Below, one piece after another: positions 21,679 to 45,594 of a stretch of 64,000 nucleotides of DNA. Origin of the DNA: Roseibaca calidilacus (lineage in GTDB: Bacteria > Pseudomonadota > Alphaproteobacteria > Rhodobacterales > Rhodobacteraceae); NCBI RefSeq assembly GCF_001517585.1, contig NZ_FBYC01000004.1, positions 930,001-994,000 on the forward strand. The letters are read 5' to 3'. Under the pieces are notes generated by a model that saw nothing but the letters and a program-made list of their open reading frames with translations, searched no databases and was not told where the DNA came from. Numbering within the stretch: position 1 is the first letter of the stretch; every line of letters starts with the position of its first letter. The position numbers and the translations under genes are program-made.

Positions 21679-21683
21679 TATCC
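21679..21683. repeat. Left 5-bp target duplication of the composite element
   Basis: TATCC lies directly outside the left terminal repeat of the left Tn3 copy. The identical TATCC lies directly outside the right terminal repeat of the right copy (45590-45594). Tn3-family transposition gives 5-bp duplications. Confidence 0.85.
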
Positions 21684-21721
21684 GGGGTCTGATGCCGGAG
21701 AGTGCAGAATCCTACGCTAAG
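21684..21721 (+). repeat. 38-bp terminal inverted repeat, left copy outer end
   Basis: Starts GGGGTCTGATGCCGG and ends CCTACGCTAAG. It is the exact reverse complement of 25341-25378. The GGGG start and 38-bp length are typical of the Tn3 family. Confidence 0.95.
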
Positions 21722-22328
21722 CGGTGAGAACCCGTTTCCCGTAATCGCGCAGATTGCCGTTCGGGTCGACATATCGGTAGAGTGTGACCGGTTTGACCCC
21801 CAATTCCTTACAAAGTTCTGAAACCGATGTGTCGCGGCTGGCCATAGCGGCCTGCGCCATTCGCACCTGCGCTTTTGTCAGAGCAAATTTCCTTCCACCT
21901 TTCCGGCCGCGGGCGCGGGCGGCTTGTAACCCGGCCATTGTGCGTTCGCGTATCAACTCGCTTTCAAATTCGGCGAGAGCGGCAAAGATGCCGAATGAAA
22001 GCCGTCCTGCCGCAGTTGTTGTGTCAATCTGCGCCCCTTGCCCGGTTAGAACCTTGAGGCCGACGCCACGCTCGGACAGCATGCTGACGGTTTTAACAAG
22101 GTGGTGGAGGCTGCGCCCCAAGCGGTCGAGCTTCCACACGACCAGCACATCCCCCTCACGCAATGCCTTGAGGCAGTCCTCCAGACCGGATCGGTCATCC
22201 TTCTTGCCCGACGCCAGATCTGAGTAAATCTGTTCTTCTTCCACGCTCGCTGTGATCAAGGCATCCCGCTGCAGGTCTAGGGACTGGCTACCGTCGGCTT
22301 TTGAGACGCGGGCATAGCCGATCAGCAT
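21717..22328 (-). CDS. tnpR: Serine resolvase of the left Tn3 copy
   Basis: A 203-residue small serine recombinase. The N-terminus MLIGYARVSKADGSQSLDLQRDAL has the catalytic Ser in the YARVS motif. WKLDRLGRSLHHLV and AEFESELIRERTMAGL follow, and a C-terminal helix-turn-helix around SVSELCKELGVKPVTLYRY binds DNA. It resolves cointegrates at the res site next to it. Its last codons reach into the terminal repeat. It is identical to the resolvase of the right copy. Confidence 0.95.
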   Translation of the reverse strand: MLIGYARVSKADGSQSLDLQRDALITASVEEEQIYSDLASGKKDDRSGLEDCLKALREGDVLVVWKLDRLGRSLHHLVKTVSMLSERGVGLKVLTGQGAQIDTTTAAGRLSFGIFAALAEFESELIRERTMAGLQAARARGRKGGRKFALTKAQVRMAQAAMASRDTSVSELCKELGVKPVTLYRYVDPNGNLRDYGKRVLTA

Positions 22329-22448
22329 GTTTCACAAACGTTCGTTTGAGGTGTTCTGAAAAGAAGCATGCTTTCAGCCATCAAAACAATTCCTTATTCA
22401 GTATCTTAATCATCAATAAACAAACCATTATAAGAAAGCAAAAGATAC
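22329..22448. promoter_or_regulatory. Divergent control region and putative res site, left copy
   Basis: The 120-bp A/T-rich gap between divergent tnpR and tnpA is where Tn3 elements carry res and both promoters. It includes the palindrome CAAACG-tt-CGTTTG at about 22333-22346, a likely resolvase subsite. The same sequence is present in the right copy. Confidence 0.6.
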
Positions 22449-25331
22449 ATGGCGCATCGTACCGTCCTGACCGAGCGGCAGCGCTCAGCACTTTTTGACC
22501 TTCCGACTGATCGAACCGTGATGCTGCGTCATTACACTTTGGCGGACGACGACTTGGAAATCATCCGCGCCCGTCGCCGCCCACACAATCGTTTCGGCTT
22601 TGCTCTCCAGCTTTGTGCGTTGCGCTACCCCGGTCGCTTGCTAACTCCGGGTGAGGTCATTCCACTGGAAGTCACGCGTTTTCTGGCGGCGCAACTTGGG
22701 CTGAAAGCGGACGATCTGGCGGGATATGCAAGCCGGGAAGAAACGCGCCACGAACACCTGGCTGCCCTGCGGGATCTTTATGACTACAAGATGTTCACTG
22801 GCCGAGGGTCGCGCGACCTGAAGGTCTGGATTGAGAACGAAGCCGAAACCGCCCGGTCGAACGAGGATTTGGCGCGGCGGTTCGTAGAGCAATGCCGGGC
22901 GACCCAGACCATCCTACCTGGGATCACGGTTATCGAACGGCTTTGCGCGGACGCACTTGTTGCTGCCGAGCGACGGATCGATGCGCGAATTGCTGACCGG
23001 CTGGATGATAAGACACGCAGCCGACTTGATGCCCTGCTGACGGAAACCGCAGACAGCTCCGTCACCCGCTTCGTCTGGCTCCGCCAGTTTGAGGTGGGTC
23101 AGAACTCAGCCGACATGAACCGCCTACTTGACCGGCTGGAATTCTTGCAGAGCATACCCGTGGAAAGATCTATTCTTGTCGGTGTGCCAGCCCACCGTAT
23201 CGCGCGCCTCCGACGGCAAGGGGAACGGTATTTCGCCGGTGATCTGCGGGATATTTCAGGTGATCGTCGCCTTGCCATCCTCGCGGTCTGCGCTTTGGAA
23301 TGGCGCAGCGCCATAGCAGACGCAGTGGTTGAGACCCACGATCGTATTGTCGGAAAGACGTGGCGGGAAGCAAAGCGTGCATGCGATGCTCGGGCAGATG
23401 ACGCCAAGGCTGCTTTGAAAGACACCTTGCAGGGCTTCTCAAATTTTGGATCAGCTCTGCTGGAAGCACATGAAGATCAGGCCTCCCTGATGGAGGCCGT
23501 CCAAAACGCCGGAGGCTGGGCATCGCTGAGGGGGCTTGTTTCCACCGCCGCCCAACTGACCGACACATTGGCGGCTGATCCACTGGCACATGTTGTTCAT
23601 GGGTATCATCGTTTCCGACGCTACGCGCCGCGCATGCTCCGGGCGCTCGATATTCAGGCAGCCCCGGTGGCCGAACCGTTGTTGGCAGCTGCCAGCATCA
23701 TCGCGGGTACGGAAACGACGACTACCCGGCCACTGACCTTTCTGCGCCGGGCTTCGAAATGGCATCGACACTTGAATCACGACGATGGGAACCGGCTTTG
23801 GGAGGTGGCGGTCCTGTGCCACCTGCGCGACGCGTTCCGTGCCGGCGACATCTGGCTCGCACATTCCCGCCGGTATGGCGATCTCAAAGACGCGCTGGTT
23901 CCCGCCGAAGTCGCCAGGGCCACGCCAAAACTGGCCATGCCATTCGAACCGGAAATCTGGCTGGCAGATCGTAAATCTCGTTTGGCTGACAGCTTGCAGC
24001 TACTGGCCCGCGCCGCCAGGGCCGGTGCCATTCCGGGAGGCTCCATCGAAGACGGCGTGCTCAAGATCGACCGCTTGACTGCCGCTGTCCCTGAAGAGGC
24101 CGATGCCATGGTGCTCGATCTTTACAAACGCCTGCCAGAGATCAGGATCACCGACCTGCTGCTCGAAGTGGATGACGCGATCGGCTTTACCGAGGCCTTC
24201 ACCCATCTGCGCACGGGCGTCCCATGCAAAGACAGGGTCGGCATGTTGAACGTGCTTCTGGCTGAAGGACTTAACCTTGGCCTCAGCAAAATGGCCGGGG
24301 CCACAAACACCCACGACTATTTCCAACTGTCGCGCTTGTCGCGGTGGCATGTCGAAAGCGAGGCGATGGCGCGCGCCTTGGCAATAGTGATCGAAGGCCA
24401 ATCCGCCTTGCCAATGGCCCGGTTTTGGGGCGGTGGCACCAGCGCGTCCAGTGATGGGCAATTCTTCCCCACCACGCGCCAGGGCGAAGCGATGAACCTG
24501 ATCAACGCCAAATACGGCCATGAACCCGGTTTGAAAGCCTACACCCATGTCTCCGACCAGTTCGGCCCCTTCGCCACCCAGACCATCCCGGCCACGGTGA
24601 ACGAGGCCCCCTTACATCCTGGACGGCCTGTTGATGACAGACGCAGGCCAGAAAATACGCGAACAGTATGCCGACACGGGCGGCTTCACCGACCACGTCT
24701 TCGCCGTCACCGCCCTTCTGGGCTTTCAGTTCATCCCCCGCATCCGGGATCTGCCTTCCAAGCGCCTTTACCTCTTCGATCCGGCATCCTGCCCAAAAGA
24801 ACTGAAGGGCCTGATCGGCGGCAAGGTCAGGGAACCCGTCATCAGCTCAAACTGGCCAGATATACTGCGCAGCGCGGCCACGATGGTGGCGGGCGCAATG
24901 GCCCCAAGCCAACTCTTGCGGAAGTTTGCATCCTATCCCCGACAGCATGAACTAGCGGTCGCATTGCGCGAAATCGGCCGGATCGAACGGACGCTCTTTA
25001 TCATCGATTGGCTGCTGGATGCCGATATGCAACGCCGTGCCCAAATCGGCCTGAATAAGGGCGAAGCGCATCATGCGCTGAAAAACGCCCTGCGCATTGG
25101 GCGCCAAGGTGAAATCCGTGATCGAACAGCCCAAGGCCAGCACTTCCGAATGGCCGGGCTGAACCTCCTCGCTGCCATCATCATTTACTGGAACACAAAC
25201 ATCTCGGTCACGCTGTCGATAGTCGCCACAGTGATGGTTTGGACTGCTCAGCAAACCTTCTGGCGCATATCTCACCCCTCGGGTGGGCGCACATCCTTCT
25301 CACCGGCGAATACAGGTGGCCCAAAAGATGA
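22449..25331 (+). pseudogene. tnpA: Tn3-family transposase, left copy, two frameshifts
   Basis: Encodes a Tn3-type DDE transposase of about 960 residues if repaired, starting MAHRTVLTERQRSALFDL. The frame breaks at a run of five C at 24607-24611: the family sequence VNEAP-YILDGLL is only read after a +1 shift. A second break near 25196 is a missing C compared with the right copy, which destroys the conserved ending HLSPLGW-type (HISPLGWAHILLTGEY in the right copy). Unless both are bypassed, this copy makes an 833-residue truncated product with an unrelated tail. It could still be mobilised in trans. Confidence 0.88.
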
Positions 25332-25340
25332 CCAAACGGC

Positions 25341-25378
25341 CTTAGCGTAGGATTCTGCACTCTCCGGCATCAGACCCC
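25341..25378 (-). repeat. 38-bp terminal inverted repeat, left copy inner end
   Basis: Reverse complement of 21684-21721. It fuses directly to a carbamate kinase remnant at 25378, so it provides the first codon of the remaining frame. Confidence 0.95.
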
Positions 25379-25632
25379 TGACAGATGTCGAAGCCGTTTT
25401 CCGTGATTGGGGTGGACCGGATCAGACCGCCATCGCAACCATCACGCCGGCAGCCCTTGACAAAATGACCTTTGCAGCTGGGTCCATGGCCCCCAAGATT
25501 GGTGCAGCCTGCGATTTCATTCGCGCGGGCGGCAGAATAGCGGGGATCGGTCGCCTGCAAGATGCGCGCGCGATTGTCGAGGGACAGGCAGGAACGCAGG
25601 TGCGCGCCGATCAGTTGGGGCTACCCGCCTGA
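25378..25632 (+). pseudogene. Carbamate kinase, C-terminal remnant
   Basis: The open frame directly after the transposon end reads LTDVEAVFRDWGGPDQTAI, then FAAGSMAPKIGAACDFI and AIVEGQAGTQV, the C-terminal 84 residues of an ArcC-type carbamate kinase of about 310 residues. The N-terminal two thirds, with the ATP- and carbamate-binding residues, are absent. The enzyme makes ATP from carbamoyl phosphate in the arginine deiminase pathway. The truncation at the terminal repeat shows that the transposon inserted into, or deleted part of, this gene in an earlier location. Confidence 0.85.
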
Positions 25633-25672
25633 ATTTTGCCCCACGCCATTGACCAGCGAGAAAGGACAGCCC

Positions 25673-26206
25673 ATGCCGCGCCTGCCAAACACGCCCACCC
25701 CGCAGGTTCTGCCGGGCAGGCTTGCGGATTGGCGGCGCGCGCTGTCGCGCCATTACAAGCGGCTGGGCCATGCGTCACGCCAAAGCCGCTTCATGGTCGA
25801 TTTGCCCGATAAAGCGCTGCAAATCGTGGCGGACCGCGCCCGCCCGGACATCGTCCTTGGCATCTCGGCAGAGGGGCGGACTGTCGGGGTGCTGGAACTG
25901 TTCAAAGGCCGCGATGGGCATGCGGAGATCGGAATCTCCGTTGAAGATACCTTTCAAGGCAAGGGCTATGGCAAGGCTCTTTTTTTGGATGGGTTGGCCG
26001 CGGCGAGCAAGCTTGGGGTGCGCACAGCGGATCTTTATTTTGCCAGTGAAAACCATGGTATCCGCAGTCTTGTTCACAGTGCCGGTGGCCAGACCCAGCA
26101 ATGCGGCGCTGAATGCGAAGCCCATATCGATATTGGGCATTTCACGGACGGCTTGGTAGATACGCATGATCCCGGCATACCCAGACCGACCCGTCTTCAT
26201 CACTGA
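25673..26206 (+). CDS. GNAT family N-acetyltransferase
   Basis: A 177-residue protein with the GNAT acetyl-CoA core. Key parts are VGVLELFKGRDGHAEIGISV (beta strands), then EDTFQGKGYGKALFLDGLA, which contains the Q-G-K-G-Y-G acetyl-CoA loop near residue 100. ATG 25673 follows GAGAAAGGA at good spacing; the frame upstream overlaps the kinase remnant and is not used. The last 25 residues look unrelated to the fold and the C-terminus may be altered. The substrate is unknown. It probably belonged to the same arginine/anaerobic locus as the carbamate kinase remnant just upstream. Confidence 0.8.
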   Translation: MPRLPNTPTPQVLPGRLADWRRALSRHYKRLGHASRQSRFMVDLPDKALQIVADRARPDIVLGISAEGRTVGVLELFKGRDGHAEIGISVEDTFQGKGYGKALFLDGLAAASKLGVRTADLYFASENHGIRSLVHSAGGQTQQCGAECEAHIDIGHFTDGLVDTHDPGIPRPTRLHH

Positions 26207-26381
26207 CTTGACTGCAGAAAGCTACGAAAAAGGGCGCGTTTGCGGTGGATAGAGAGCTCGTTATGCCCCGGCAGATAACGTAGATCAGCAAGCCCGAGGA
26301 AGAGCCATGCCATGATGATTTCGGTTTTGTGCTTTGGTCTTGCAGCACCTGTCAGACAGCACAATCAGAGGATCATGTAAC

Positions 26382-27023
26382 ATGAACTATCACGCAAGAA
26401 TGCTGGCAACGGGCGCTTTGAGCGTTGCGACTCTCATGGGCTGCACCAATATGGACGGCACGGCAAACCAGCCTGGCACCGGCGCAGTGATCGGCGGGCT
26501 GACCGGGGCTGCGGCAGGACAGATCATCGGCGGTAATACCGGTGCGACGGTGATCGGCGGTGCACTCGGCGCGGCCTTGGGTGGCGTGATTGGCACACAG
26601 ATGGCCGCACAAGAGCGCGAGCTGCGCCAGTCGCTGGCGGGCACTGGAGCTTCGATCACGAACACCGGCAGCGACTTACGGGTCGTCTTGCCCGAAGCCG
26701 TTACGTTCCGCACCGGGTCTTCGGTCGTCGAGTCCGGGTTCCAACCTGCTCTGGCGCAGGTTTCACAAAGCCTGAGCCGTCACCCGAATTCCAGCGTCCG
26801 AGTGGTTGGACATACCGATACCGTCGGATCGGCGGCGCTGAATAACCAGCTGAGCCAAGACAGGGCCTTGGCCGTGGCGCGGGTTCTGATCCGCAATGGC
26901 ACCAACGCAAACCGGATCGTGGTGTCGGGACGCGGGTTCTACGAGCCGATCGCTTCGAACAACACCGTGGAAGGTCGTGCAGAAAACCGCCGGGTCGAAA
27001 TCGTGATTACACCGACCGGCTAA
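26382..27023 (+). CDS. OmpA family lipoprotein with glycine-zipper domain
   Basis: A 213-residue outer-membrane lipoprotein. The lipobox ends LMGC with the acylated Cys21. A Gly-rich hydrophobic zipper follows at residues about 38-70 (GAVIGGLTGAAAGQIIGG), then an OmpA-like peptidoglycan-binding domain with VVGHTDTVGSAALN and final GRAENRRVEIVI. The start at 26382 is chosen because it gives the lipoprotein signal. It should anchor the outer membrane to the cell wall. IS66 is inserted 93 bp after its stop. It is cargo of the composite element. Confidence 0.88.
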   Translation: MNYHARMLATGALSVATLMGCTNMDGTANQPGTGAVIGGLTGAAAGQIIGGNTGATVIGGALGAALGGVIGTQMAAQERELRQSLAGTGASITNTGSDLRVVLPEAVTFRTGSSVVESGFQPALAQVSQSLSRHPNSSVRVVGHTDTVGSAALNNQLSQDRALAVARVLIRNGTNANRIVVSGRGFYEPIASNNTVEGRAENRRVEIVITPTG

Positions 27024-27108
27024 CACGATTTGCGCATGACATCTTTTGAAACGGGCAAGGGCGGCACCTTTGCCCGTTTCATTTTGGCAAAACGTGAATC
27101 CAAAAAGA

Positions 27109-27116
27109 AATCAACC
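27109..27116. repeat. IS66 target duplication, left
   Basis: AATCAACC, identical to 29852-29859, marks the insertion of IS66 into the island. Confidence 0.9.
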
Positions 27117-27219
27117 GCAAGCGGCGGCTACGCCCCATTGGTTCCGGGCTTGCGCTTTGGTGAGATGGTGCGGATCGGAGGGCGCGCAGTAGCTCATAAT
27201 GTACTACGCAACGAGTTCC

Positions 27220-28890
27220 CTATGCACCCTTGTCCTGCTGGGCATATGCCCATGGCATCAGCGCATCGATGCCCTTGTCGAGATGGCCATTGGCCAGCTT
27301 GGTGAAGAGATCACGCAGATAGGCATAGGGTTCGACGCCGTTCATCTTGCATGTGCCGATCAGGCTGGCGAAGCGGGCCCAATTGCGCCCGCCCTCGTCG
27401 TGGCCGGCGAAGAGCGCGTTGCGGCGGTTCATGGCCGGGCTGCGGATGGCGTTTTCGACAAGGTTGGAGTCGATGTCGACGCGTCCGTCCTCGAGGAATA
27501 GCCTGAAGCCGTCCTGCCGTTTCAGCATGTAGGCCATGGCCTCACCGAGGTCGGATTTGCGCGAGACGCGGGCGGCCTGTGCCTTTAGCCAAGTGAAGAA
27601 TTCATCGACAAGCGGGTGGGACATTTCCTGCCGGACAGCCCGGCGGCGGTCCGGGTCGAGCCCCCGGATGGCGTCCTCGATCTTGTAAAGCGCCGCGATC
27701 CGCAACAGCGCCTCGTCCACGATGGGCGATCCCTTCTTCGGCTTGGCCTTGATCAGCTTGCGCCTGCCGTGCGCCCAGCAGAAAGCCAGCTGCAGCGGAT
27801 CGCCACCTGTGCGCTTGGATGTGGCCAGATGGGTATAGCCACCATAGGCATCGACCTGGATCGTGCCGTTGAAGCCGTCGAGGATTTCGGCGGCATACGC
27901 GCCTTTCCGTCCGGGACGATAATGGAACACCACACCCGGCGGCGCAGTCCCACCCCAACCGCGATCATCGCGCAACACGGCCCACAAATAGCCAGTCTTG
28001 GTCTTTCCACGCCCCGGGTCGAGAACCGGGGCGGTGGTTTCATCGACGTAAAGCCGCGTGCTCTCGGCCATCAGGCGCTTGGCCATGTGGTCAACGACAG
28101 GTGCGATCAGCGCCCCGGTACGGCCCATCCAGTCGGCCAATACGGATCGGTCGATCGGGACCCCGTGCCGCGCCATGACCATGGCCTGCCTGTTCAGTGG
28201 CATGTGCTCGGAATGCTTGGAGACGGCAATCTGTGCCAGCAACGCCTCGGTGGGCCAGCTGCCCTCCAACAGATGCGCAGGCGCCTTGGCTTGCACCACG
28301 CCTGTGCGCCCCTTGGGGCAGGCGTATTTCGGGCGGATCGTGACGATCACCTGATAGCGCGCCGGGATGTAATCCAGCCGCTCGCTCCGGTCTTCGCCAA
28401 TCTTGACCATGTCCCCGCAGCCGCAGGGGCATGCGATACTTTCAGGCTCGACCACCCGTAGGGTGCGCGGCAGGTTTTCCGGCAGTGCCCGTGCCTTGCG
28501 GGGTGCGCGTGGTTTGCGCTTGTCGGGGTCTGTCTCGCTGACCGCGATCCTGTCTTCGACAGCGGCGATCTGCGCCTGTGTCTCGGCGATGGCAGTTTCC
28601 AGATCTTCCAGCGCCAACTCTAGCTGGGCGGGGTCCAGCTTCTCGGATTTCGGCCCGAACTTGGTGCGCCGGTAGTCCTGAACCTGGCCTTCCAGCTTCT
28701 CGATCAGCGCCTTCAGCTCGGTGATGAAGGCCTCCTTTTCGGCTACCACTGCCTGTTCATGCTGCCGTGCCGCGCGTTCAACCCGCGCCTCAAACTGTGC
28801 GGCGTCCAGCGCTGCCTTTTGGGCGGCAAAGGCATTCACCACCTCGGGCGGCAGGTCTGGAAACTGGCTAAGATCGAGCGTTTGCGACAT
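27220..28890 (-). CDS. tnpC: IS66 family transposase TnpC
   Basis: A 556-residue DDE transposase. The N-terminal part is a Glu/Ala-rich leucine-zipper region (residues about 20-110), followed by a zinc-finger-like segment CPCGCGDMVKI. The catalytic core includes YVDETTAPVLDPGRGKTKTGYLWA and IQVDAYGGYTHLA, then LVENAIRSPAMNRRNALFAG and a C-terminal segment EPYAYLRDLFTKLANGH. The length is normal for IS66. It is the main transposase of the element. Confidence 0.96.
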   Translation of the reverse strand: MSQTLDLSQFPDLPPEVVNAFAAQKAALDAAQFEARVERAARQHEQAVVAEKEAFITELKALIEKLEGQVQDYRRTKFGPKSEKLDPAQLELALEDLETAIAETQAQIAAVEDRIAVSETDPDKRKPRAPRKARALPENLPRTLRVVEPESIACPCGCGDMVKIGEDRSERLDYIPARYQVIVTIRPKYACPKGRTGVVQAKAPAHLLEGSWPTEALLAQIAVSKHSEHMPLNRQAMVMARHGVPIDRSVLADWMGRTGALIAPVVDHMAKRLMAESTRLYVDETTAPVLDPGRGKTKTGYLWAVLRDDRGWGGTAPPGVVFHYRPGRKGAYAAEILDGFNGTIQVDAYGGYTHLATSKRTGGDPLQLAFCWAHGRRKLIKAKPKKGSPIVDEALLRIAALYKIEDAIRGLDPDRRRAVRQEMSHPLVDEFFTWLKAQAARVSRKSDLGEAMAYMLKRQDGFRLFLEDGRVDIDSNLVENAIRSPAMNRRNALFAGHDEGGRNWARFASLIGTCKMNGVEPYAYLRDLFTKLANGHLDKGIDALMPWAYAQQDKGA

Positions 28891-28954
28891 GCGCCCTTCT
28901 ACCAGATCCGGAACAGAAAGCCCAATAAAACAATGCCAAATTCGACCCGCTGAG

Positions 28955-29308
28955 TCATCCTGCCGCAGTCGGTGCCAGCACCCTTTGCGCCACCACCCGC
29001 CGCCAATCCAGACCTTCGAACAAGGCTTCCGCCTGCGCCCGAGACAGCCGCATAACCCCGTCCTGAATCTTCGGCCAGGCGAAGCTGCCCTGTTCCAGGA
29101 CCTTGTAGATCAGCACCATTCCGGTGCCATCCCACACAAGGATCTTCAACCTGTCCCCGCGTTTTGACCGAAACACCACCGTCACCCCGGAATGCGGATC
29201 GAGCTTCAGCTCCGTCTGCACGATCAGCGCCAGAGCGTTGTGCCCACAGCGGAAGTCTACTGGCTTCGTCGCGATCAGGATCGGCAGCCTCTGACCCGCG
29301 ACGATCAT
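28955..29308 (-). CDS. tnpB: IS66 accessory protein TnpB
   Basis: A 117-residue IS66 Orf2-type protein with the family core KPVDFRCGHNALALIVQ and RGDRLKILVWDGTGMVLIYK. Its start overlaps the tnpA stop by 4 bp. It is needed with TnpA and TnpC for efficient IS66 transposition; the biochemical role is not settled. Confidence 0.95.
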   Translation of the reverse strand: MIVAGQRLPILIATKPVDFRCGHNALALIVQTELKLDPHSGVTVVFRSKRGDRLKILVWDGTGMVLIYKVLEQGSFAWPKIQDGVMRLSRAQAEALFEGLDWRRVVAQRVLAPTAAG

Positions 29309-29763
29309 GTCGCCCCGCGCAATGCACGCACCAGCGCCGCCGCGCGCTCCACTGTAACATCACCGGGAATACGCAAGCGCAGGTCGGACCCGACCTCAAT
29401 CGTCAGCACACCAGAGCCATCCTGCGCGGCCGCGGCCGTGGAAAACACCGGCTGATCCATGGGCTCGGGCAGAATTGACAGCGGCACAAAGGCAGGCTCC
29501 GCCGCCTCCGACGCAGGCGATCCGTTCAGCGCATCCATCAGGTCACCCGGCAAAGCCAACCGACCCTGTCGGGCATGGCGACGCCAATCTGACAGGTGAT
29601 GTGGGAGCAAATCGTATTTGCGTGCCACATCCACAACCCGCGCCCCAGGCTGATAACTCTCCGCGACAATCTTCGCTTTCACTTCCGATGGCCATCGGCG
29701 ATTGCGCCGTCGCGGTTCAACAATTTCACACCGACCCATAAATCCGTCGCCACCATCCGCCAT
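29305..29763 (-). CDS. tnpA: IS66 accessory protein TnpA
   Basis: A 152-residue protein from the ATG at 29763 (MADGGDGFMGRCEIVEPRRR); a later ATG at 29739 is also possible. It has a Tn3/IS66 helix-turn-helix, SEVKAKIVAESYQPGARVVDVARKYDLLPHHLSDW read in pieces around residues 28-62, that should bind the element ends. It is the first of the three IS66 genes. Confidence 0.9.
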   Translation of the reverse strand: MADGGDGFMGRCEIVEPRRRNRRWPSEVKAKIVAESYQPGARVVDVARKYDLLPHHLSDWRRHARQGRLALPGDLMDALNGSPASEAAEPAFVPLSILPEPMDQPVFSTAAAAQDGSGVLTIEVGSDLRLRIPGDVTVERAAALVRALRGAT

Positions 29764-29851
29764 GCGAAACCTCCATCTGCGCGCAGACCTTCTCGCAGGC
29801 ATGCCACGCGTCAGGAACAGGACAAATCAATGGGGCGTGGCCGTCGCTTAC

Positions 29852-29859
29852 AATCAACC
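29852..29859. repeat. IS66 target duplication, right
   Basis: AATCAACC, identical to 27109-27116. Confidence 0.9.
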
Positions 29860-30046
29860 AAATGCAAACCTGCATCAGTCGCTGCTCGAACCCGATGGTG
29901 CATTGTACTCAAGACGGCACGTTACCCTGCCGTTGAATGATTGTTTCAAGTATCGACGAAGCCGCGTGAACCACTTTTTGGGTCTTACCCGGATTTGGTG
30001 ACGGGGTTTCGTCATGTTTGAACAGAACAAGAAAGGTTCCATTGTC

Positions 30047-30241
30047 ATGGACAACAAAGCTCCTGCATCAAATACCGCCGAAAAGATGAAAACTGTCAAA
30101 TCGGCTTGGGATGCGGCCCCCGCAGGCCCCAAGAAGGACGCGGCGCTGAAGCATTACCAGGCTGCCGAAAAAGCACAGACTGCCAAGAATGACAGCGACT
30201 GCAACCGCGAACTCGACGCGGCCAAGAAAGCGCTCGTCTAA
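30047..30241 (+). CDS. Small uncharacterised helical protein
   Basis: A 64-residue, highly charged soluble protein starting MDNKAPASNTAEKMKTVKSAW. ATG 30047 is chosen because AGAAAGG lies 10 bases before it; an ATG at 30014 would add 11 residues. It is rich in Ala, Lys and Asp, with repeated AAPAGPKKDAAL and AEKAQTAKND segments that form amphipathic helices. The family is not recognised with certainty, but such proteins are common in stress-related plasmid and island loci of alphaproteobacteria. A strong terminator follows 22 bp later. Confidence 0.65.
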   Translation: MDNKAPASNTAEKMKTVKSAWDAAPAGPKKDAALKHYQAAEKAQTAKNDSDCNRELDAAKKALV

Positions 30242-30262
30242 GGCGCGCACGCGTTTTGACCA

Positions 30263-30290
30263 CGCTCCCCGGCATATCTGCCGGGGAGCG
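30263..30290. terminator. Hairpin between convergent genes
   Basis: CGCTCCCCGGCA and TGCCGGGGAGCG form a perfect 12-bp stem with a TATC loop. It sits between the 64-residue protein gene and the Crp-type regulator gene, whose 3' ends face each other, so it can serve both. Confidence 0.7.
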
Positions 30291-30291
30291 A

Positions 30292-31936: not shown

Positions 31937-31939
31937 AAT

Positions 31940-36488: not shown

Positions 36489-36564
36489 GCTTTGCACAGG
36501 CTAAGCGCTCCTTTCTTGAAAGGGGCGCAGGCGAACCGCTGTATTACCGGAGAGGATCACGCCA

Positions 36565-37098
36565 GTGGAAGAACTGACAAGCAAGACAGTCGCGGTTTTT
36601 TCCCGGCCGTTCACCGTTCCGGGTTTTGCCGAAACACTCCCCGCGGGTGAGTATGAGATTGAAACGGAGTTGGTGTCACCCCCTGACAGCCAAGATCCCG
36701 AAACCTGGAAAGCCTCTGTCTTGGTGAGGCTTCATTCGCGGATTGCGCATCCGGGCCTTGCGCGGACCCTGACCGTTTCGCTTGCCGACCTTGACCATGC
36801 TCGGGCGAGGGACAAACTGACAGGCCGGGCGTTGTCTGACTTCTACCTTGAGGAAATGCTGGCTGATCCGATGGTCCGCCTCGTGATGAAGGCAGACGGC
36901 GTCTCTGAGGCGCATCTGCGACATCTCTACTCGGGGCGAGAGATAGCTGGTCCCGATCTGAATGTGCCTGCGGCGAGTGCGCCCACGCAAAAGGCACGGG
37001 ACGATGCCTCAATCAGGGCTGCAGAAAACGAAGGGATGCCTACGCGGCCGGGATCGCAGATTCCTGTGCACCTGCACCACGCAGTGGGACAAACTTAA
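36565..37098 (+). CDS. Uncharacterised LPAGEYE-motif protein B
   Basis: A 177-residue protein read from the GTG at 36565 after GGAGAGG. It shares PFTV-x-G-x4-LPAGEYE at residues 15-31 with the 104-residue protein at 34349, at identical positions. It then extends with SVLVRLHSRIAHPGLARTLTV and an acidic-basic second half, LEEMLADPMVRLVMKADGVS. The tail is Ala/Pro-rich. The stop overlaps the zinc-ribbon gene (TAATG). The function is unknown; the paralogy implies paired or duplicated roles in this cluster. Confidence 0.75.
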   Translation: MEELTSKTVAVFSRPFTVPGFAETLPAGEYEIETELVSPPDSQDPETWKASVLVRLHSRIAHPGLARTLTVSLADLDHARARDKLTGRALSDFYLEEMLADPMVRLVMKADGVSEAHLRHLYSGREIAGPDLNVPAASAPTQKARDDASIRAAENEGMPTRPGSQIPVHLHHAVGQT

Positions 37099-37307
37099 TG
37101 GCGCACAAGTCAATCGGTGACAGTGCAATGCCAGAGATTGCGTCCGCGCGGGCCCACGGCGACGTTCCGCGCGAACGCCAATGCCTGCGATGCGAAACCT
37201 TGTTCTGGAGCGAGGGTTTCGGAGAGCGGATTTGTCGGCGCTGCAAAGGCTTGAACGCTTGGCGTAATGCGGCACCTGTCAGTTCGGGTGCATCGCACCG
37301 CAACTGA
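37098..37307 (+). CDS. Small zinc-ribbon protein
   Basis: A 69-residue protein whose ATG overlaps the previous TAA. Cys29-x2-Cys32 (QCLRCE) and Cys46-x2-Cys49 (ICRRCK) form a compact zinc ribbon around [10 protein letters not shown]. Such proteins often bind nucleic acid or a protein partner. It is co-translated with LPAGEYE protein B and is followed by the second transglutaminase-like gene. Confidence 0.65.
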
Positions 37308-37356
37308 TCAGCATCGACACGCGTGCTGCATTCCTCAAACCACACTGGACCCCGTT

Positions 37357-38244
37357 TTGGCCCGCCTCGACATCCTCCACACCACAACCTACCGGTACCG
37401 TCAGGCGGTTAAACTTGGACCGCACCGGCTGATGCTGCGTCCCCGCGAAACGCGAGAGTTGCGGCTGTTCTCACACGAACTGTCCATCTCGCCGCCAGCG
37501 ACCGTAACCTGGGCGCATGATGTGGCCGGCAACGCGATCGCTACCGCCGTCTTTGACGCTCCGACAGATCATTTGGTGATCGATAGCCGCGCCATGGTAG
37601 AACTGAGTGCGCCAGCCTGGCCAGTCTTTCCCATCGCGGCTTCGGCCGCACAATTTCCCTTCATCTATTCTGCCGACGAATGGACGGACCTCGGTGCGCT
37701 GACGGTTCCTCAATACCACGATGCCGATGGCCGCTTTGCCAACTGGATCGACGGTTTTGTGATGGCGCGCCCGACCGACACGCTGTCGCTTCTGAAAGAC
37801 ATCAGCAATGGCGTGTTCATGCAGATTTCTTATCAGAGCCGTGACGCAGAAGGCACCCAGTCGCCGATCGAGACACTCGACCGGGGATGGGGCTCGTGCC
37901 GTGATTTCGCGGTCCTGCTCGCAGAATCTGCCCGCCGTCTTGGCCTGGGCGCTCGTATTGTCTCGGGCTATCTGTCCGATCCCGAAACAAGCCTCATCGG
38001 GTCGGCAGGCGCCGGATCTACACATGCCTGGGTCGAGATATTTATCCCCGGCGCTGGCTGGATTGCCTTCGATCCAACCAACCGAAGCGTCGGATCGCAG
38101 AACTTGATACCAGTTGCCGTCGGTCGGGGCATTCACCAAATTTCTCCAATAGCGGGAAAGATATCGGGAGGCCCAAATGTCTTTTGTGATCTTTCGGTTG
38201 GAGTTTCGGTTCGAATGTCAGTGCCTTTTGGTGACGCAATCTAA
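37357..38244 (+). CDS. Transglutaminase-like protein with complete Cys-His-Asp triad
   Basis: A 295-residue protein read from the TTG at 37357 ([20 protein letters not shown]), the family's N-terminal strand. An ATG at 37267 would add 30 unlike residues and overlap the zinc-ribbon gene. After the beta domain, Cys181 is in [20 protein letters not shown], His223 in [19 protein letters not shown] and Asp239 in AFDPTN. This is the usual order of a transglutaminase or cysteine peptidase. The start is uncertain, as no good ribosome site is seen. It is the last gene of the cluster. Confidence 0.85.
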
Positions 38245-38449
38245 AAAGCGTGGATTGGTCTTACAATGTCCATAATGCTAAGGTACCTTTGCAAGCAAAA
38301 AACCTTTACACTGCAGTCTGAAAAGTCAGCGTCCGAAGCGCAGGACTAATTTCGTCACCGTAGGCAACTTAAGTTTGGTTTACCTTCGAGGTATATGCTC
38401 GCGGTGGAGTTTCGACGCTTCAAATACGAACTCTAGGCCCGCAACTTCC

Positions 38450-38595
38450 TTTTTCTGGATCACCCCAGCCCTTTGCTGATCGGCGGCGAAGTACTCGGGG
38501 ATCATGCTCTTGCCATTGTTGAATGGACCGGCAAGCGGCGAACCGCGTGGACGTAGGGGTGGCGACCGCTCCAGCAGCAGCTGCATCGCGTCATG
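38450..38595 (-). pseudogene. TniB-like ATPase fragment
   Basis: The minus strand reads LLLERSPPLRPRGSPLAGPF followed by NNGKSMIPEYFAADQQ. The GPFNNGKSMI stretch matches the Walker A motif of TniB, the ATP-binding transposition protein of Tn5053/Tn402-type elements (about 300 residues). Only about 50 residues remain. It shows that another transposon once lay here. Confidence 0.6.
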
Positions 38596-38650
38596 CGTCG
38601 GCGCAGCAGTGGGATAACCGGGGAAATCGAATGCCCCGTTTTCGGCCCCG

Positions 38651-38764
38651 ATGGCCGAAGCTCTGACCGGTGCCAGCCGCGCCGCCATCCAGCGCAACCT
38701 CGCCTGGATGGAAGCGCGTGGTCTGATCTGTGAGGTGACCGGGCAAGGACGCTATCGGATGTGA
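38651..38764 (+). pseudogene. C-terminal helix-turn-helix fragment
   Basis: The frame MAEALTGASRAAIQRNLAWM then EARGLICEVTGQGRYRM ends in a stop. It looks like the terminal winged helix of a plasmid-type regulator (DUF1612-like) or Fic-associated protein. The N-terminal part is missing and the 5' end abuts the TniB fragment. Confidence 0.5.
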
Positions 38765-38930
38765 CGGACCACGAACTGAAGACTGCTCCAGACTTCGCTT
38801 ATCACGTTGGTGGCAAAGGCACCAAAGCCCTCACGCAGCAGAGTATCCTGAGAAGCCCTATTCACTTAATGCATTTGTTGCACTTATTTCATATATGGTG
38901 GTAGTGAACAGAAAACGAGAGGAGACCACC

Positions 38931-39395
38931 ATGAACATGTTGGCACACCGGCATCTCCCACCGACCCCGCAGGACGCAGCGATCGCGCGCGTCTCGGGAC
39001 AGGCGCTGTCGCGCTTTGCCCGGGCACGCGCGCCGTTGAAGCTTCGCGTGACGGACTCCGAGCAGATGGAGCCGATAGAGCTTCCTGCGGGCGCTGTGTC
39101 ACTGCTCATTGAAATCCTCGAGGCGATGGCAGCGGGGCGCGGGGTCACCATCATCCCCGAGAATGCAGAGCTCTCGACAGTGCAGGCAGCTGAGGTCCTG
39201 AACGTCTCGCGGCCGTTCCTGATCAAGCTGCTCGAGGATGGCAGTATCCCGCATCGGAAGGTCGGCAAGCATCGCCGCGTCCGCATGGAAGACGTCATGT
39301 CGTACAAGGCAGCCATCGACAACGAGCGCGAAGCCGTCCTTGATCAACTGGCCGCCGACGCACAGGACCAGGACATGGGCTATGGCTCGAAATGA
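38931..39395 (+). CDS. Excisionase-type HTH antitoxin
   Basis: A 154-residue protein starting MNMLAHRHLPPTPQDAAIAR after a GAGGAGA ribosome site. The central helix-turn-helix ELSTVQAAEVLNVSRPFLIK followed by DGSIPHRKVGKHRRVRMEDV is of the MerR/excisionase type found in antitoxins paired with PIN toxins. The N-terminal half probably wraps around the toxin. It overlaps the PIN gene by 4 bp (ATGA). The pair would form an autoregulated toxin-antitoxin operon. Confidence 0.85.
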   Translation: MNMLAHRHLPPTPQDAAIARVSGQALSRFARARAPLKLRVTDSEQMEPIELPAGAVSLLIEILEAMAAGRGVTIIPENAELSTVQAAEVLNVSRPFLIKLLEDGSIPHRKVGKHRRVRMEDVMSYKAAIDNEREAVLDQLAADAQDQDMGYGSK

Positions 39396-39960
39396 GCCAG
39401 TATACGGTGCTGTTCGACGCGAATGTCCTCTACCCCGCGCCAATTCGGGACGCGCTTATGCAATTGGCTGTCACGGATCTTTTCAAGGCGAAGTGGACGG
39501 CTGACATCCATCGGGAATGGATCGACGCCCTTCAACGTAATGAACCTCATCGGGAGCGGGCGGCGCTGGAGCGAACTCGCGACTTGATGGACAGGGCGAC
39601 ACGCGACGGCCTGGTCACCGGTTACGCGGCATTGGTGCCGACCCTACACTGCCGGACCCCGACGATCGACATGTTCTGGTGGCCGCAATCGTTGGGCGCT
39701 GTGACGCCATCGTAACCCAGAACCTGAGGGACTTCCCACCAGAGACACTTGCGCCCTTTGGCATCGAGACCCAGCATCCCGACGACTTCTTCCGGAACCA
39801 ACTATCTCTCGCGCCGGGCTTGGTCTGTTCAGCGCTGCGGAAAGTTCGGGCGCGCCTCAAGAATCCGCCAAAAAGCGTCGACGAGTATCTCGCGATCCTG
39901 ACGCAGCAAGGGCTGGTCGCCACGGTTGCCGATTTGGAGCAGTTCGCCGATCTGCTTTGA
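39392..39960 (+). pseudogene. PIN-domain toxin, frameshifted
   Basis: A PIN-domain RNase toxin of about 190 residues if repaired. The first frame gives SQYTVLFDANVLYPAPIRDA with the metal-binding Asp and reads through LTRDGLVTG-type sequence. It is broken by one missing base between 39649 and 39650; the second frame continues the expected LPDPDDRHVLVAAI and then GRCDAIVTQNLRDFPPETLA. As written, the product is 107 residues with a wrong tail lacking half the acidic catalytic set, so the toxin is probably dead while its antitoxin is intact. Confidence 0.85.
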
Positions 39961-39985
39961 TCGCTGCCGATTGGCCGCCAATCCG

Positions 39986-40150
39986 TCAGCGCCGGAGGTC
40001 GTGGCGGGTGTGATTTGGCAAGCCGCCAACGAGTCCGGCGACCGCCTGCGTTTCCGTGCGGGGCCCGATGCCAAAGCGCTGCTGGACGAGCGCAAGGCCA
40101 AGAGCAAAGCAGATTTCTTCGGCGGTCTGAAGGGAATGATGGATGGTTAA
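39986..40150 (+). pseudogene. SDR oxidoreductase, C-terminal fragment
   Basis: The frame SAPEVVAGVIWQAANESGDR then LRFRAGPDAKALLDERKAKS and FFGGLKGMMDG is the last 54 residues typical of a short-chain dehydrogenase. No Rossmann fold, active-site Tyr or start is left. It is another piece of gene debris between the PIN and Fic genes. Confidence 0.65.
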
Positions 40151-40197
40151 AGGTGCCACTTGCGGCAGCTCGACGTTTCACGCCGAAGCGACGCGCG

Positions 40198-41436
40198 CTA
40201 AGCGGGCAGATCCCCATCTGCGAACAGGTTCGGGAAAAGTCGTTCGCGGTAGTCGAGAGGAAACGCCAGCCGTACAGGCGTCTTCGGTGAGGCAGATGAC
40301 AGATAGCCCGCCGCACTCAGCTTGCTCAACGTGTTGCGCGCTGTGCGCTCGGATGTCTTGAGCACGATCTGCGCTTCGCCGCGTTCCAGCGTGCCATAGC
40401 GAAGGACTGCCGAGATGAGGTCGGGCGCACGCTTGTCGTCGATCGTGTCTTTGACCAAGCGCCGGTAGCGCTTTTCCAAACCGCCAAGGTCGAAGAGCTT
40501 GGCTGAGAACGTGATCTGATCCAGCGTTACCTTCAGGAACCATTCGCAATAGGTCTTCAGCGCGGCCTCGGATAGATTGCCCCGCCCGTCGCGATCTCCA
40601 CGGCGTGGGGAATCGGCCATGTCCATCATGCGCTTGTATTCGCCCCGATCCGCCAATCCGCGCGCCAGACCGCGCGAGATAGACCAAAGCCCCTGACCTC
40701 CGATACCCGCCTCGAGCGCCATCGCATGTGACATCAGGCGGCTGACCCGCCCGTTCCCGTCGGGAAACGGGTGGATGAAGTTGAGCCGGTGGTGCGCCGA
40801 GGCGATAGCGATGATCCGCCCGCTCGCCGAGCGGGCCGCGACCTGAAACCGCTTGTCGAAGTGATCAATGAAGGCCGCGACCCGACCCGAAGACGGGGGC
40901 AGATGGCGACCGACGGCAACTTCGCTGTCACCCTCCTGCCGCATACGACCCGGAATGATTGGCTCGCTTGTTCCATCCGGGTGTTCGATCCGCCGGAACT
41001 CGTCGGGCATCTCGTCGTAGAAGGCCTTGTGCGCCCAGGTGAGGAAGGCGGCGGACGTTGGTCGTGGCAAGGTGCCGTCTTGGTGCAGCTTGTCGATCGA
41101 CCGCTGGACGATGACATGGGCGCGGGCTTCCAGCGCAAGAGGTCGTGTCTCAGCCTCAAGCTCGGCTCCGGCGAGGGCGCGTTCGATGTCACGCGGGCGC
41201 GTGTTGTGCCCCTCGATCAAGTTCGAGTAGTAGCAGTTCATCACCCTGACCAGGTCAGCCAGTTCGGCCGCACTGTCCGGGTGCAGGCCCTGTCCCAGCC
41301 CTGCCGCCTCGCGCTGGATTTCGACCGACAGGTCCGCCAGGCTGGCAGGTATGTGCTCCTCGAAGAAGCAAGGTTCGATCCTGCCGGGTGTCTCTATCAT
41401 TTCTTGCCGATCGTGATTATCCAGAATTTTGAGCAT
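40198..41436 (-). CDS. Fic family protein with N-terminal inhibitory motif
   Basis: A 412-residue Fic (AMP-transferase) protein. The catalytic loop HPFPDGNGRVSRL lies at residues 222-234 with His222. The sequence SNLIEG at residues 71-76 fits the inhibitory motif (S/T)xxxE(G/N), whose Glu75 would clash with ATP and keep the enzyme off, placing it in the class with an internal N-terminal inhibitory helix. The C-terminus has a winged helix (LERGEAQIVLKTSERTARNT), so it may bind DNA. It probably adds AMP to a protein. It stands alone in the cargo. Confidence 0.92.
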   Translation of the reverse strand: MLKILDNHDRQEMIETPGRIEPCFFEEHIPASLADLSVEIQREAAGLGQGLHPDSAAELADLVRVMNCYYSNLIEGHNTRPRDIERALAGAELEAETRPLALEARAHVIVQRSIDKLHQDGTLPRPTSAAFLTWAHKAFYDEMPDEFRRIEHPDGTSEPIIPGRMRQEGDSEVAVGRHLPPSSGRVAAFIDHFDKRFQVAARSASGRIIAIASAHHRLNFIHPFPDGNGRVSRLMSHAMALEAGIGGQGLWSISRGLARGLADRGEYKRMMDMADSPRRGDRDGRGNLSEAALKTYCEWFLKVTLDQITFSAKLFDLGGLEKRYRRLVKDTIDDKRAPDLISAVLRYGTLERGEAQIVLKTSERTARNTLSKLSAAGYLSSASPKTPVRLAFPLDYRERLFPNLFADGDLPA

Positions 41437-41557
41437 TTGTTACCACTTTACGCCATGAAGTCCAAGCTTTTGCCGATGTGCGTTGCCGATCATGGATGCC
41501 GATGTCCTATGTCCAGGTGTGACGCATTCGCAGCGTCATCAAAGGAGCATTCCACCG

Positions 41558-41839
41558 TCATCGTGTGATCTCGCCTGCCAACACAGCTCTTCCATGAACC
41601 GCGAGCGTCGCGGTGAACCTTGGACAGCCGAACTGCCGGATGACATCTAGGACCCGCGCGTCGTAGGCAGCTTGTCCGATGATGCGACACAGGTCCGACG
41701 CGTGAAACTGGCGGTTCGAACTCGGAGCAGCCCTGATCTGATCGTGCAGCTCGCGCTCCCGTGGATCCGCTGCCTGTCTTGGCGTGGGCGCTTCCGTCTG
41801 TCGGCTTTCCGAACCGGGTGAGGTTCGCCATCGGCGCAT
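41558..41839 (-). CDS. Uncharacterised 93-residue protein
   Basis: A minus-strand frame from the ATG at 41839. The first 30 residues are Arg/Ser/Pro-rich. The last 60, including FHASDLCRIIGQAAYDARVL and RQFGCPRFTATLAVHGRAV, could form a small alpha/beta domain. I do not recognise the family. It lies 54 bp from the inner end of the right Tn3 copy, and an 8-bp inverted repeat (41859-41880) sits between. Gene status is uncertain. Confidence 0.35.
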   Translation of the reverse strand: MRRWRTSPGSESRQTEAPTPRQAADPRERELHDQIRAAPSSNRQFHASDLCRIIGQAAYDARVLDVIRQFGCPRFTATLAVHGRAVLAGEITR

Positions 41840-41893
41840 GAACCCGAGTAGGTAGCCGGCGGGAACCCTGTCGTTCCCGCGCGCCCGGTTAAA

Positions 41894-41931
41894 GGGGTCT
41901 GATGCCGGAGAGTGCAGAATCCTACGCTAAG
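41894..41931 (+). repeat. 38-bp terminal inverted repeat, right copy inner end
   Basis: Same sequence as 21684-21721. The flanking bases are TTAAA, which do not match the other inner end. Confidence 0.95.
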
Positions 41932-41940
41932 GCCGTTTGG

Positions 41941-44824
41941 TCATCTTTTGGGCCACCTGTATTCGCCGGTGAGAAGGATGTGCGCCCACCCGAGGGGTGA
42001 GATATGCGCCAGAAGGTTTGCTGAGCAGTCCAAACCATCACTGTGGCGACTATCGACAGCGTGACCGAGATGTTTGGTGTTCCAGTAAATGATGATGGCA
42101 GCGAGGAGGTTCAGCCCGGCCATTCGGAAGTGCTGGCCTTGGGCTGTTCGATCACGGATTTCACCTTGGCGCCCAATGCGCAGGGCGTTTTTCAGCGCAT
42201 GATGCGCTTCGCCCTTATTCAGGCCGATTTGGGCACGGCGTTGCATATCGGCATCCAGCAGCCAATCGATGATAAAGAGCGTCCGTTCGATCCGGCCGAT
42301 TTCGCGCAATGCGACCGCTAGTTCATGCTGTCGGGGATAGGATGCAAACTTCCGCAAGAGTTGGCTTGGGGCCATTGCGCCCGCCACCATCGTGGCCGCG
42401 CTGCGCAGTATATCTGGCCAGTTTGAGCTGATGACGGGTTCCCTGACCTTGCCGCCGATCAGGCCCTTCAGTTCTTTTGGGCAGGATGCCGGATCGAAGA
42501 GGTAAAGGCGCTTGGAAGGCAGATCCCGGATGCGGGGGATGAACTGAAAGCCCAGAAGGGCGGTGACGGCGAAGACGTGGTCGGTGAAGCCGCCCGTGTC
42601 GGCATACTGTTCGCGTATTTTCTGGCCTGCGTCTGTCATCAACAGGCCGTCCAGGATGTAAGGGGGCCTCGTTCACCGTGGCCGGGATGGTCTGGGTGGC
42701 GAAGGGGCCGAACTGGTCGGAGACATGGGTGTAGGCTTTCAAACCGGGTTCATGGCCGTATTTGGCGTTGATCAGGTTCATCGCTTCGCCCTGGCGCGTG
42801 GTGGGGAAGAATTGCCCATCACTGGACGCGCTGGTGCCACCGCCCCAAAACCGGGCCATTGGCAAGGCGGATTGGCCTTCGATCACTATTGCCAAGGCGC
42901 GCGCCATCGCCTCGCTTTCGACATGCCACCGCGACAAGCGCGACAGTTGGAAATAGTCGTGGGTGTTTGTGGCCCCGGCCATTTTGCTGAGGCCAAGGTT
43001 AAGTCCTTCAGCCAGAAGCACGTTCAACATGCCGACCCTGTCTTTGCATGGGACGCCCGTGCGCAGATGGGTGAAGGCCTCGGTAAAGCCGATCGCGTCA
43101 TCCACTTCGAGCAGCAGGTCGGTGATCCTGATCTCTGGCAGGCGTTTGTAAAGATCGAGCACCATGGCATCGGCCTCTTCAGGGACAGCGGCAGTCAAGC
43201 GGTCGATCTTGAGCACGCCGTCTTCGATGGAGCCTCCCGGAATGGCACCGGCCCTGGCGGCGCGGGCCAGTAGCTGCAAGCTGTCAGCCAAACGAGATTT
43301 ACGATCTGCCAGCCAGATTTCCGGTTCGAATGGCATGGCCAGTTTTGGCGTGGCCCTGGCGACTTCGGCGGGAACCAGCGCGTCTTTGAGATCGCCATAC
43401 CGGCGGGAATGTGCGAGCCAGATGTCGCCGGCACGGAACGCGTCGCGCAGGTGGCACAGGACCGCCACCTCCCAAAGCCGGTTCCCATCGTCGTGATTCA
43501 AGTGTCGATGCCATTTCGAAGCCCGGCGCAGAAAGGTCAGTGGCCGGGTAGTCGTCGTTTCCGTACCCGCGATGATGCTGGCAGCTGCCAACAACGGTTC
43601 GGCCACCGGGGCTGCCTGAATATCGAGCGCCCGGAGCATGCGCGGCGCGTAGCGTCGGAAACGATGATACCCATGAACAACATGTGCCAGTGGATCAGCC
43701 GCCAATGTGTCGGTCAGTTGGGCGGCGGTGGAAACAAGCCCCCTCAGCGATGCCCAGCCTCCGGCGTTTTGGACGGCCTCCATCAGGGAGGCCTGATCTT
43801 CATGTGCTTCCAGCAGAGCTGATCCAAAATTTGAGAAGCCCTGCAAGGTGTCTTTCAAAGCAGCCTTGGCGTCATCTGCCCGAGCATCGCATGCACGCTT
43901 TGCTTCCCGCCACGTCTTTCCGACAATACGATCGTGGGTCTCAACCACTGCGTCTGCTATGGCGCTGCGCCATTCCAAAGCGCAGACCGCGAGGATGGCA
44001 AGGCGACGATCACCTGAAATATCCCGCAGATCACCGGCGAAATACCGTTCCCCTTGCCGTCGGAGGCGCGCGATACGGTGGGCTGGCACACCGACAAGAA
44101 TAGATCTTTCCACGGGTATGCTCTGCAAGAATTCCAGCCGGTCAAGTAGGCGGTTCATGTCGGCTGAGTTCTGACCCACCTCAAACTGGCGGAGCCAGAC
44201 GAAGCGGGTGACGGAGCTGTCTGCGGTTTCCGTCAGCAGGGCATCAAGTCGGCTGCGTGTCTTATCATCCAGCCGGTCAGCAATTCGCGCATCGATCCGT
44301 CGCTCGGCAGCAACAAGTGCGTCCGCGCAAAGCCGTTCGATAACCGTGATCCCAGGTAGGATGGTCTGGGTCGCCCGGCATTGCTCTACGAACCGCCGCG
44401 CCAAATCCTCGTTCGACCGGGCGGTTTCGGCTTCGTTCTCAATCCAGACCTTCAGGTCGCGCGACCCTCGGCCAGTGAACATCTTGTAGTCATAAAGATC
44501 CCGCAGGGCAGCCAGGTGTTCGTGGCGCGTTTCTTCCCGGCTTGCATATCCCGCCAGATCGTCCGCTTTCAGCCCAAGTTGCGCCGCCAGAAAACGCGTG
44601 ACTTCCAGTGGAATGACCTCACCCGGAGTTAGCAAGCGACCGGGGTAGCGCAACGCACAAAGCTGGAGAGCAAAGCCGAAACGATTGTGTGGGCGGCGAC
44701 GGGCGCGGATGATTTCCAAGTCGTCGTCCGCCAAAGTGTAATGACGCAGCATCACGGTTCGATCAGTCGGAAGGTCAAAAAGTGCTGAGCGCTGCCGCTC
44801 GGTCAGGACGGTACGATGCGCCAT
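41941..44824 (-). pseudogene. tnpA: Tn3-family transposase, right copy, one frameshift
   Basis: Same transposase as at 22449. The first frame runs from the ATG at 44824 to a G5 run (minus-strand C5) at 42662-42666, where it leaves the family sequence. The second frame, from before 42642, carries YILDGLLMTDAGQKIREQYA and continues to the intact C-terminus HISPLGWAHILLTGEYRWPK. With one base removed, the product is about 960 residues, normal for Tn3. The CCC-T context allows +1 slippage in principle, so the frame may be restored during translation; otherwise it is a pseudogene. Confidence 0.85.
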
Positions 44825-44944
44825 GTATCTTTTGCTTTCTTATAATGGTTTGTTTATTGATGATTAAGATACTGAATAAGGAATTGTTTTGATGGCTGAA
44901 AGCATGCTTCTTTTCAGAACACCTCAAACGAACGTTTGTGAAAC
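44825..44944. promoter_or_regulatory. Divergent control region and putative res site, right copy
   Basis: Inverted counterpart of 22329-22448, with the same CAAACG-CGTTTG palindrome near 44927-44940 and divergent promoters for tnpA and tnpR. Confidence 0.6.
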
Positions 44945-45556
44945 ATGCTGATCGGCTATGCCCGCGTCTCAAAAGCCGACGGTAGCCAGTCCCTAGACCT
45001 GCAGCGGGATGCCTTGATCACAGCGAGCGTGGAAGAAGAACAGATTTACTCAGATCTGGCGTCGGGCAAGAAGGATGACCGATCCGGTCTGGAGGACTGC
45101 CTCAAGGCATTGCGTGAGGGGGATGTGCTGGTCGTGTGGAAGCTCGACCGCTTGGGGCGCAGCCTCCACCACCTTGTTAAAACCGTCAGCATGCTGTCCG
45201 AGCGTGGCGTCGGCCTCAAGGTTCTAACCGGGCAAGGGGCGCAGATTGACACAACAACTGCGGCAGGACGGCTTTCATTCGGCATCTTTGCCGCTCTCGC
45301 CGAATTTGAAAGCGAGTTGATACGCGAACGCACAATGGCCGGGTTACAAGCCGCCCGCGCCCGCGGCCGGAAAGGTGGAAGGAAATTTGCTCTGACAAAA
45401 GCGCAGGTGCGAATGGCGCAGGCCGCTATGGCCAGCCGCGACACATCGGTTTCAGAACTTTGTAAGGAATTGGGGGTCAAACCGGTCACACTCTACCGAT
45501 ATGTCGACCCGAACGGCAATCTGCGCGATTACGGGAAACGGGTTCTCACCGCTTAG
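44945..45556 (+). CDS. tnpR: Serine resolvase of the right Tn3 copy
   Basis: Identical in length (203 residues) and sequence to the left-copy resolvase at 21717-22328, with the catalytic Ser in YARVS and the C-terminal helix-turn-helix. It is transcribed outward toward fliG. If it acts on the two inverted res sites of the composite, it could invert the cargo. Confidence 0.95.
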   Translation: MLIGYARVSKADGSQSLDLQRDALITASVEEEQIYSDLASGKKDDRSGLEDCLKALREGDVLVVWKLDRLGRSLHHLVKTVSMLSERGVGLKVLTGQGAQIDTTTAAGRLSFGIFAALAEFESELIRERTMAGLQAARARGRKGGRKFALTKAQVRMAQAAMASRDTSVSELCKELGVKPVTLYRYVDPNGNLRDYGKRVLTA

Positions 45557-45589
45557 CGTAGGATTCTGCACTCTCCGGCATCAGACCCC
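45552..45589 (-). repeat. 38-bp terminal inverted repeat, right copy outer end
   Basis: Reverse complement of 41894-41931. The base after it starts TATCC, the outer target duplication. Confidence 0.95.
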
Positions 45590-45594
45590 TATCC
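45590..45594. repeat. Right 5-bp target duplication of the composite element
   Basis: TATCC, identical and in direct orientation to 21679-21683 at the far end of the element. Confidence 0.85.

Follow-up and report, generated by a model that had tools for sequence, protein, structure and literature searches.

A 23,906-bp block bounded by two inverted Tn3434-like units in Roseibaca calidilacus, very probably a composite transposon of TnPpa1 type

The stretch of DNA analysed here (the window) comprises 64,000 nucleotides of Roseibaca calidilacus (contig NZ_FBYC01000004.1, positions 930,001 to 994,000), and the positions given below are numbered from its first letter. It contains a block of 23.9 kb located between two convergent genes, neither of which is broken: an OmpA-domain gene, which ends at 21636, and fliG, which ends at 45625 on the opposite strand and whose product displays three FliG domains in Pfam, with a score under the NCBIfam fliG cut-off. 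The block is bounded by two Tn3-family units of ~3.7 kb in inverted orientation (21684-25378 and 41894-45589), each composed of the genes tnpR and tnpA. A single-base indel is the sole difference between the two units over this length. The units, their genes and their ends are the following:

21679-21683, + strand: left copy of the target duplication, TATCC
21684-25378, + strand: left Tn3434-like unit, with the tnpR-side end outermost
21684-21721, + strand: outer left 38-bp terminal repeat
21717-22328, - strand: tnpR (resolvase) of the left unit, Pfam Resolvase with an E-value of 4.8e-45
22449-25350, + strand: tnpA of the left unit, with two frameshifts, one near 24607 (common to the right unit) and one near 25195
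25341-25378, - strand: inner left 38-bp terminal repeat
41894-45589, - strand: right Tn3434-like unit, inverted
41894-41931, + strand: inner right 38-bp terminal repeat
41941-44824, - strand: tnpA of the right unit, disrupted by the frameshift common to the left unit
44945-45556, + strand: tnpR of the right unit, mirror of 21717-22328
45552-45589, - strand: outer right 38-bp terminal repeat
45590-45594, + strand: right copy of the target duplication, TATCC

The terminal repeats of the Tn3 family are of ~38 bp and start with GGGG. The four ends of the units agree with this pattern, being of 38 bp and identical across both units. A resolvase is found in the transposon members of the family and not in its insertion sequence (IS) members, and here tnpR is recognised by the Pfam profile Resolvase. 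The profile DDE_Tnp_Tn3 is detected on both frameshifted pieces of tnpA when these are searched apart, with E-values of 2.3e-42 and 1.2e-66.

An earlier interpretation made from the letters alone (the sequence-only reading) had reported that the TATCC at 21679-21683 is repeated at 45590-45594 in direct orientation and that the inner flanks, TGACA on the left and TTAAA on the right, differ from each other; this is confirmed exactly. The match of the outer flanks covers 5 bp and not 6, as the next base outward differs on each side. A 5-bp target duplication is thus found around the composite, whereas neither single unit has matched flanks of its own. For two random 5-mers drawn from the rest of the window, the probability of a match is 0.0020, or 0.0032 among the AT-rich ones. 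Matched flanks are also rare on single units. Among the best 80 of 200 related loci, an end scan allowing at most 10 mismatches gave 19 single Tn3434-like units with both flanks, one of which was dropped for an N in a flank; 2 of the 18 evaluable units have matching 5-bp flanks. This rarity perhaps comes from frequent rearrangement at such elements.

The flanks bear directly on a history in which resident DNA acquired a unit on each side by separate insertions and the segment between the two was then flipped, by recombination between the inverted copies or by the resolvase. The sequence-only reading had argued that this history would match the outer flanks by chance only; the chance of such a match is 0.002-0.003. 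Such a flip has a precedent in the same transposon family, since an inverted Tn3434a pair with a flipped segment of ~15 kb is reported for plasmid pAMI8 of Paracoccus aminophilus in PMC4133298; there, an outer flank and the inner flank opposite to it are reverse complements. The flanks of the window display no reverse-complement match in either pairing. Moreover, the DNA between the units is missing from between the OmpA-domain gene and fliG in four relatives and sits elsewhere in one of them, the genome G027 (see below). We consider this history very improbable.

The relatives in question are four same-genus genomes (G002, G003, G026 and G027), examined out of 36 other genomes of the genus that were searched. 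The OmpA-domain gene and fliG are adjacent in all four, with a gap of 33 to 130 bp between the aligned ends. The DNA enclosed by the two units (the core) encodes GNAT-domain, OmpA-family, CsbD-like and Fic-domain proteins, a Crp/Fnr-type regulator, two transglutaminase-like proteins and an HTH/PIN pair, and it also contains two IS. The PIN-domain gene of the pair (39392-39960) is apparently split over two frames, and a plasmid relative is annotated as one gene. The features of the core are as follows:

25379-41893, no strand: core of the composite, 16.5 kb, of which ~12.5 kb is 91-93% identical to positions 16112-30563 of contig C4 of G027
25379-25383, + strand: TGACA, within the carbamate kinase gene, best read from the comparison with G027 as the former target site of the left unit
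25379-25632, + strand: remaining 3' part (~84 codons) of the carbamate kinase gene, truncated by the terminal repeat
27117-29852, - strand: IS66-family element with 8-bp direct repeats AATCAACC, missing at the matching place of G027
31899-33221, - strand: IS3-type element with an rve integrase core and 25-bp inverted repeats
41889-41893, + strand: TTAAA (TTGAA in relatives), best interpreted as the earlier target of the right unit

G027 belongs to another species of the same genus and has the core on its contig C4, where both the Tn3 units and the two IS are lacking. One weak match of 51 bp is all that this draft of ~50 contigs shows to the Tn3 unit. Among the 36 other genomes of the genus, G027 alone matches the core along its length at 91-93%; others match parts of it at lower identity. 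The sequence of G027 continues beyond both ends of the core, over the 8 kb fetched on the left and over 88 bp on the right, where the contig ends. To the left, the TGACA lies inside an intact carbamate kinase gene (309 amino acids), whose neighbours, named by eye, resemble arginine deiminase and ornithine carbamoyltransferase. To the right, the sequence runs uninterrupted through TTGAA in the four places examined, namely G027, Roseicitreum pRA02, Pacificitalea pDY25-B and contig C2 of the window's own genome. The junction reads CGGTTGAA in G027, in these two Rhodobacterales plasmids and in the own contig C2, and the window has CGGTTAAA followed by the terminal repeat. As the core of G027 is unoccupied at both ends, and the three other sequences at the right end, the best interpretation of the inner flanks is that they are the old target sites of the single units, TATCC being the new one.

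The search for the block elsewhere, which had been proposed with the sequence-only reading, was fruitful for the core, found without Tn3 units on contig C4 of G027; it was not for the units, since no third copy is present in the own genome (3.35 Mb in 4 contigs). At 91-93%, the core is more similar between the window's genome and G027 than is the host DNA flanking the insertion site, which is 78-81% identical, and 71% around fliG alone. For the 8.1 kb located to the left of the core in G027, the own genome has no more than three short matching stretches (71-75%). From these two comparisons, the block probably came to this chromosome from a different lineage, or else from a replicon that has since been lost. 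No plasmid match was found for the left part of the core.

The same joins bear on the assembly. An artefact at the identical repeats could be suspected, given that the copies are one base apart and that the frameshifts, which lie at homopolymer runs or close to them, may point to errors of sequencing. Against it, the four unique flanks join as they do in independent genomes, the OmpA-domain gene with fliG on one hand and the contiguous core of G027 on the other hand, and a single unit falsely merged with a circle would yield direct copies. An artefact thus has very little probability in our estimation.

Orientation also bears on a history where one unit was inserted at TATCC and a circle carrying the core and a second unit was then integrated by homologous recombination, or where a cointegrate was formed. 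Such events would likewise leave outer flanks that match and foreign DNA enclosed by two copies. These pathways are established to place the copies in direct orientation, whereas the copies are inverted here, so one unit would in addition have to flip by way of its 38-bp ends. In addition, for a cointegrate whose donor unit had kept its target duplication the inner flanks would match, but they differ. This history is highly unlikely, if slightly less so than the two others.

Transposition of the whole block by its outermost repeats, which the sequence-only reading had put forward, is the only history considered that fits at once the matched outer and unmatched inner flanks, the missing inversion signature, the adjacency of the host genes in four of four relatives and the core of G027. 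Composite transposition predicts matched outer flanks and inner flanks that correspond to old targets; both are found. We hold with high confidence that the block is a 23,906-bp composite transposon of TnPpa1 type that moved as one block by its outermost ends. Two Tn3434-like cryptic transposons would have come to lie in inverted orientation around a block of ordinary genes, one of them inserted at TGACA in the carbamate kinase (arcC) gene and the other at TTRAA in a gene whose function is unknown. The outermost 38-bp ends, both of which are tnpR-side, would then have been used by a transposase of the Tn3 family, and the block would have entered the spacer that separates the two convergent host genes, the OmpA-domain gene and fliG, with duplication of TATCC. 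The route was presumably a replicative cointegrate resolved by TnpR. This order of events is inferred, as is the origin of the block in another cell or in a replicon lost since. The pair may have arisen by two insertions or by one insertion plus an intramolecular replicative inversion, the outer flanks at the donor site, which would distinguish the two, being lost.

Several observations weigh against the transposition of the composite. An empty site lacking the single TATCC had been named with the sequence-only reading as a refutation, and taken literally this is the outcome: TATCC is seen in the spacer of none of the four relatives, even though the adjacency anticipated for the two genes is found in each. 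As the spacer cannot be aligned over such divergence, we consider the lack of TATCC to be uninformative. A donor with both units around the core was not found in the genomes searched. In PMC3281130, duplications of 6 bp are described for Tn3434a, Tn6122 and Tn5393 as single units, versus 5 bp here and in TnPpa1. Finally, the frameshift common to both tnpA copies, located in a homopolymer run, is missing from 14 of the 14 other copies aligned. Should it be older than the duplication, another source must have supplied the transposase; as a homopolymer error, or as a change spread by gene conversion, it would carry no information on that source. It may be of any of these three origins. With both tnpA copies frameshifted, the element looks immobile unless a transposase is supplied in trans, and its present mobility is doubtful as judged from the sequence. 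The closest related copy, 96% identical to the units (locus L216, G116:C38), is some tens of bases shorter than the window unit; its tnpA is open over 148 codons only, counted from the same start, which is a separate defect.

As for the two IS of the core, both are probably later insertions after the arrival of the block; their copies in the own genome fit this without proving it. Of the IS66-family element there are one further full copy on contig C4, one divided between the ends of contig C1 and a partial one; of the IS3-type element there are three further near-identical copies on contig C4 and a more distant one on contig C3. The IS3-type element lies where G027 has ~2 kb of other DNA (C4, 19891-21883), and its arrival may have been accompanied by a deletion or a replacement.

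In Paracoccus pantotrophus DSM 11072 and in P. aminophilus, the copies of Tn3434 type are ~91% identical to the units of the window. Tn3434 and Tn3434a share with them a size of ~3695 bp, 38-bp ends and the genes tnpR and tnpA without passenger (for Tn3434a, according to PMC3281130), but they are single units without a core, whereas the window has a pair acting together. Of the plasmid records with several matching places, two, NC_022050 and NZ_CP038206, were examined. The record NZ_CP038206 (DSM 11072) contains a pair spanning 44,283 bp (locus L181, 3567-47849), with TTCCC on both outer sides and with the inner flanks AAATG and ATATT. We have taken this pair to be TnPpa1 on the basis of the strain, the size and the units, the record being unannotated there. 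According to PMC3281130, TnPpa1 measures 44,286 bp, was caught transposing with 5-bp duplications and was the sole element of its type known to the authors.

TnPpa1 resembles the element of the window in having two identical inverted Tn3434-type units, a large core of ordinary cellular genes and outer 5-bp flanks that match while the inner ones do not. It differs by a core of ~37 kb (16.5 kb in the window) with other content, and by its tnpA frame, which in the copy measured is open over 964 codons, whereas both copies of the window are frameshifted. Its outward ends are those at the 3' side of tnpA, in contrast with the tnpR-side ends here; with ends that are near-identical, either pair could serve. 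TnPpa1 was seen to transpose, whereas the movement of the window element is deduced from sequence comparison.

The pair of pAMI8 (locus L179, 2713-26404) is likewise formed by two identical inverted Tn3434a copies ~16 kb apart with the tnpR side outward, but its outer flanks are unmatched and one flank pair has the inversion signature. In this pair, TTCAT and ATGAA are reverse complements, the other two flanks, AGGAG and CCTCA, are unmatched, so that more than a simple inversion may have taken place.

The remark of the sequence-only reading that Tn3 units are uncommon as bookends of a composite is borne out, but the arrangement is not new, in view of the published TnPpa1, Tn5271/IS1071 and TIME-COMP elements. 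IS1071 is an IS and not a complete transposon with a resolvase gene. Tn5271 (two IS1071) and TIME-COMP1/2 are also composites with Tn3-family ends, but according to PMC3925955 their bookends are IS or 262-bp miniature elements and not complete resolvase-bearing transposons. No further composite of two complete Tn3-family transposons is named in the titles and abstract openings of the open-access literature searched. The best 80 of 200 related loci gave no case of two complete units at one locus, which is a weak negative as the flanks were of at most 10 kb and many contigs short. For two stretches that had hinted at two copies (G314 and G408), the end scan recognised a single end in each.

It is conceivable, though unlikely, that Tn3434-type units form mobile islands with either end pair outward and that this one was moved in trans, its tnpA copies being already broken at pairing; if so, such islands would be non-autonomous passengers of any Tn3434 relative entering the cell. 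The kind of element is already known, and that of the window looks like a second composite of TnPpa1 type, in another genus of Rhodobacteraceae-type bacteria. The unoccupied counterpart of its core in a congener lets all three target sites be named. The arrangement would thus recur, could carry ordinary cellular genes between lineages and could be built with either end pair outward.

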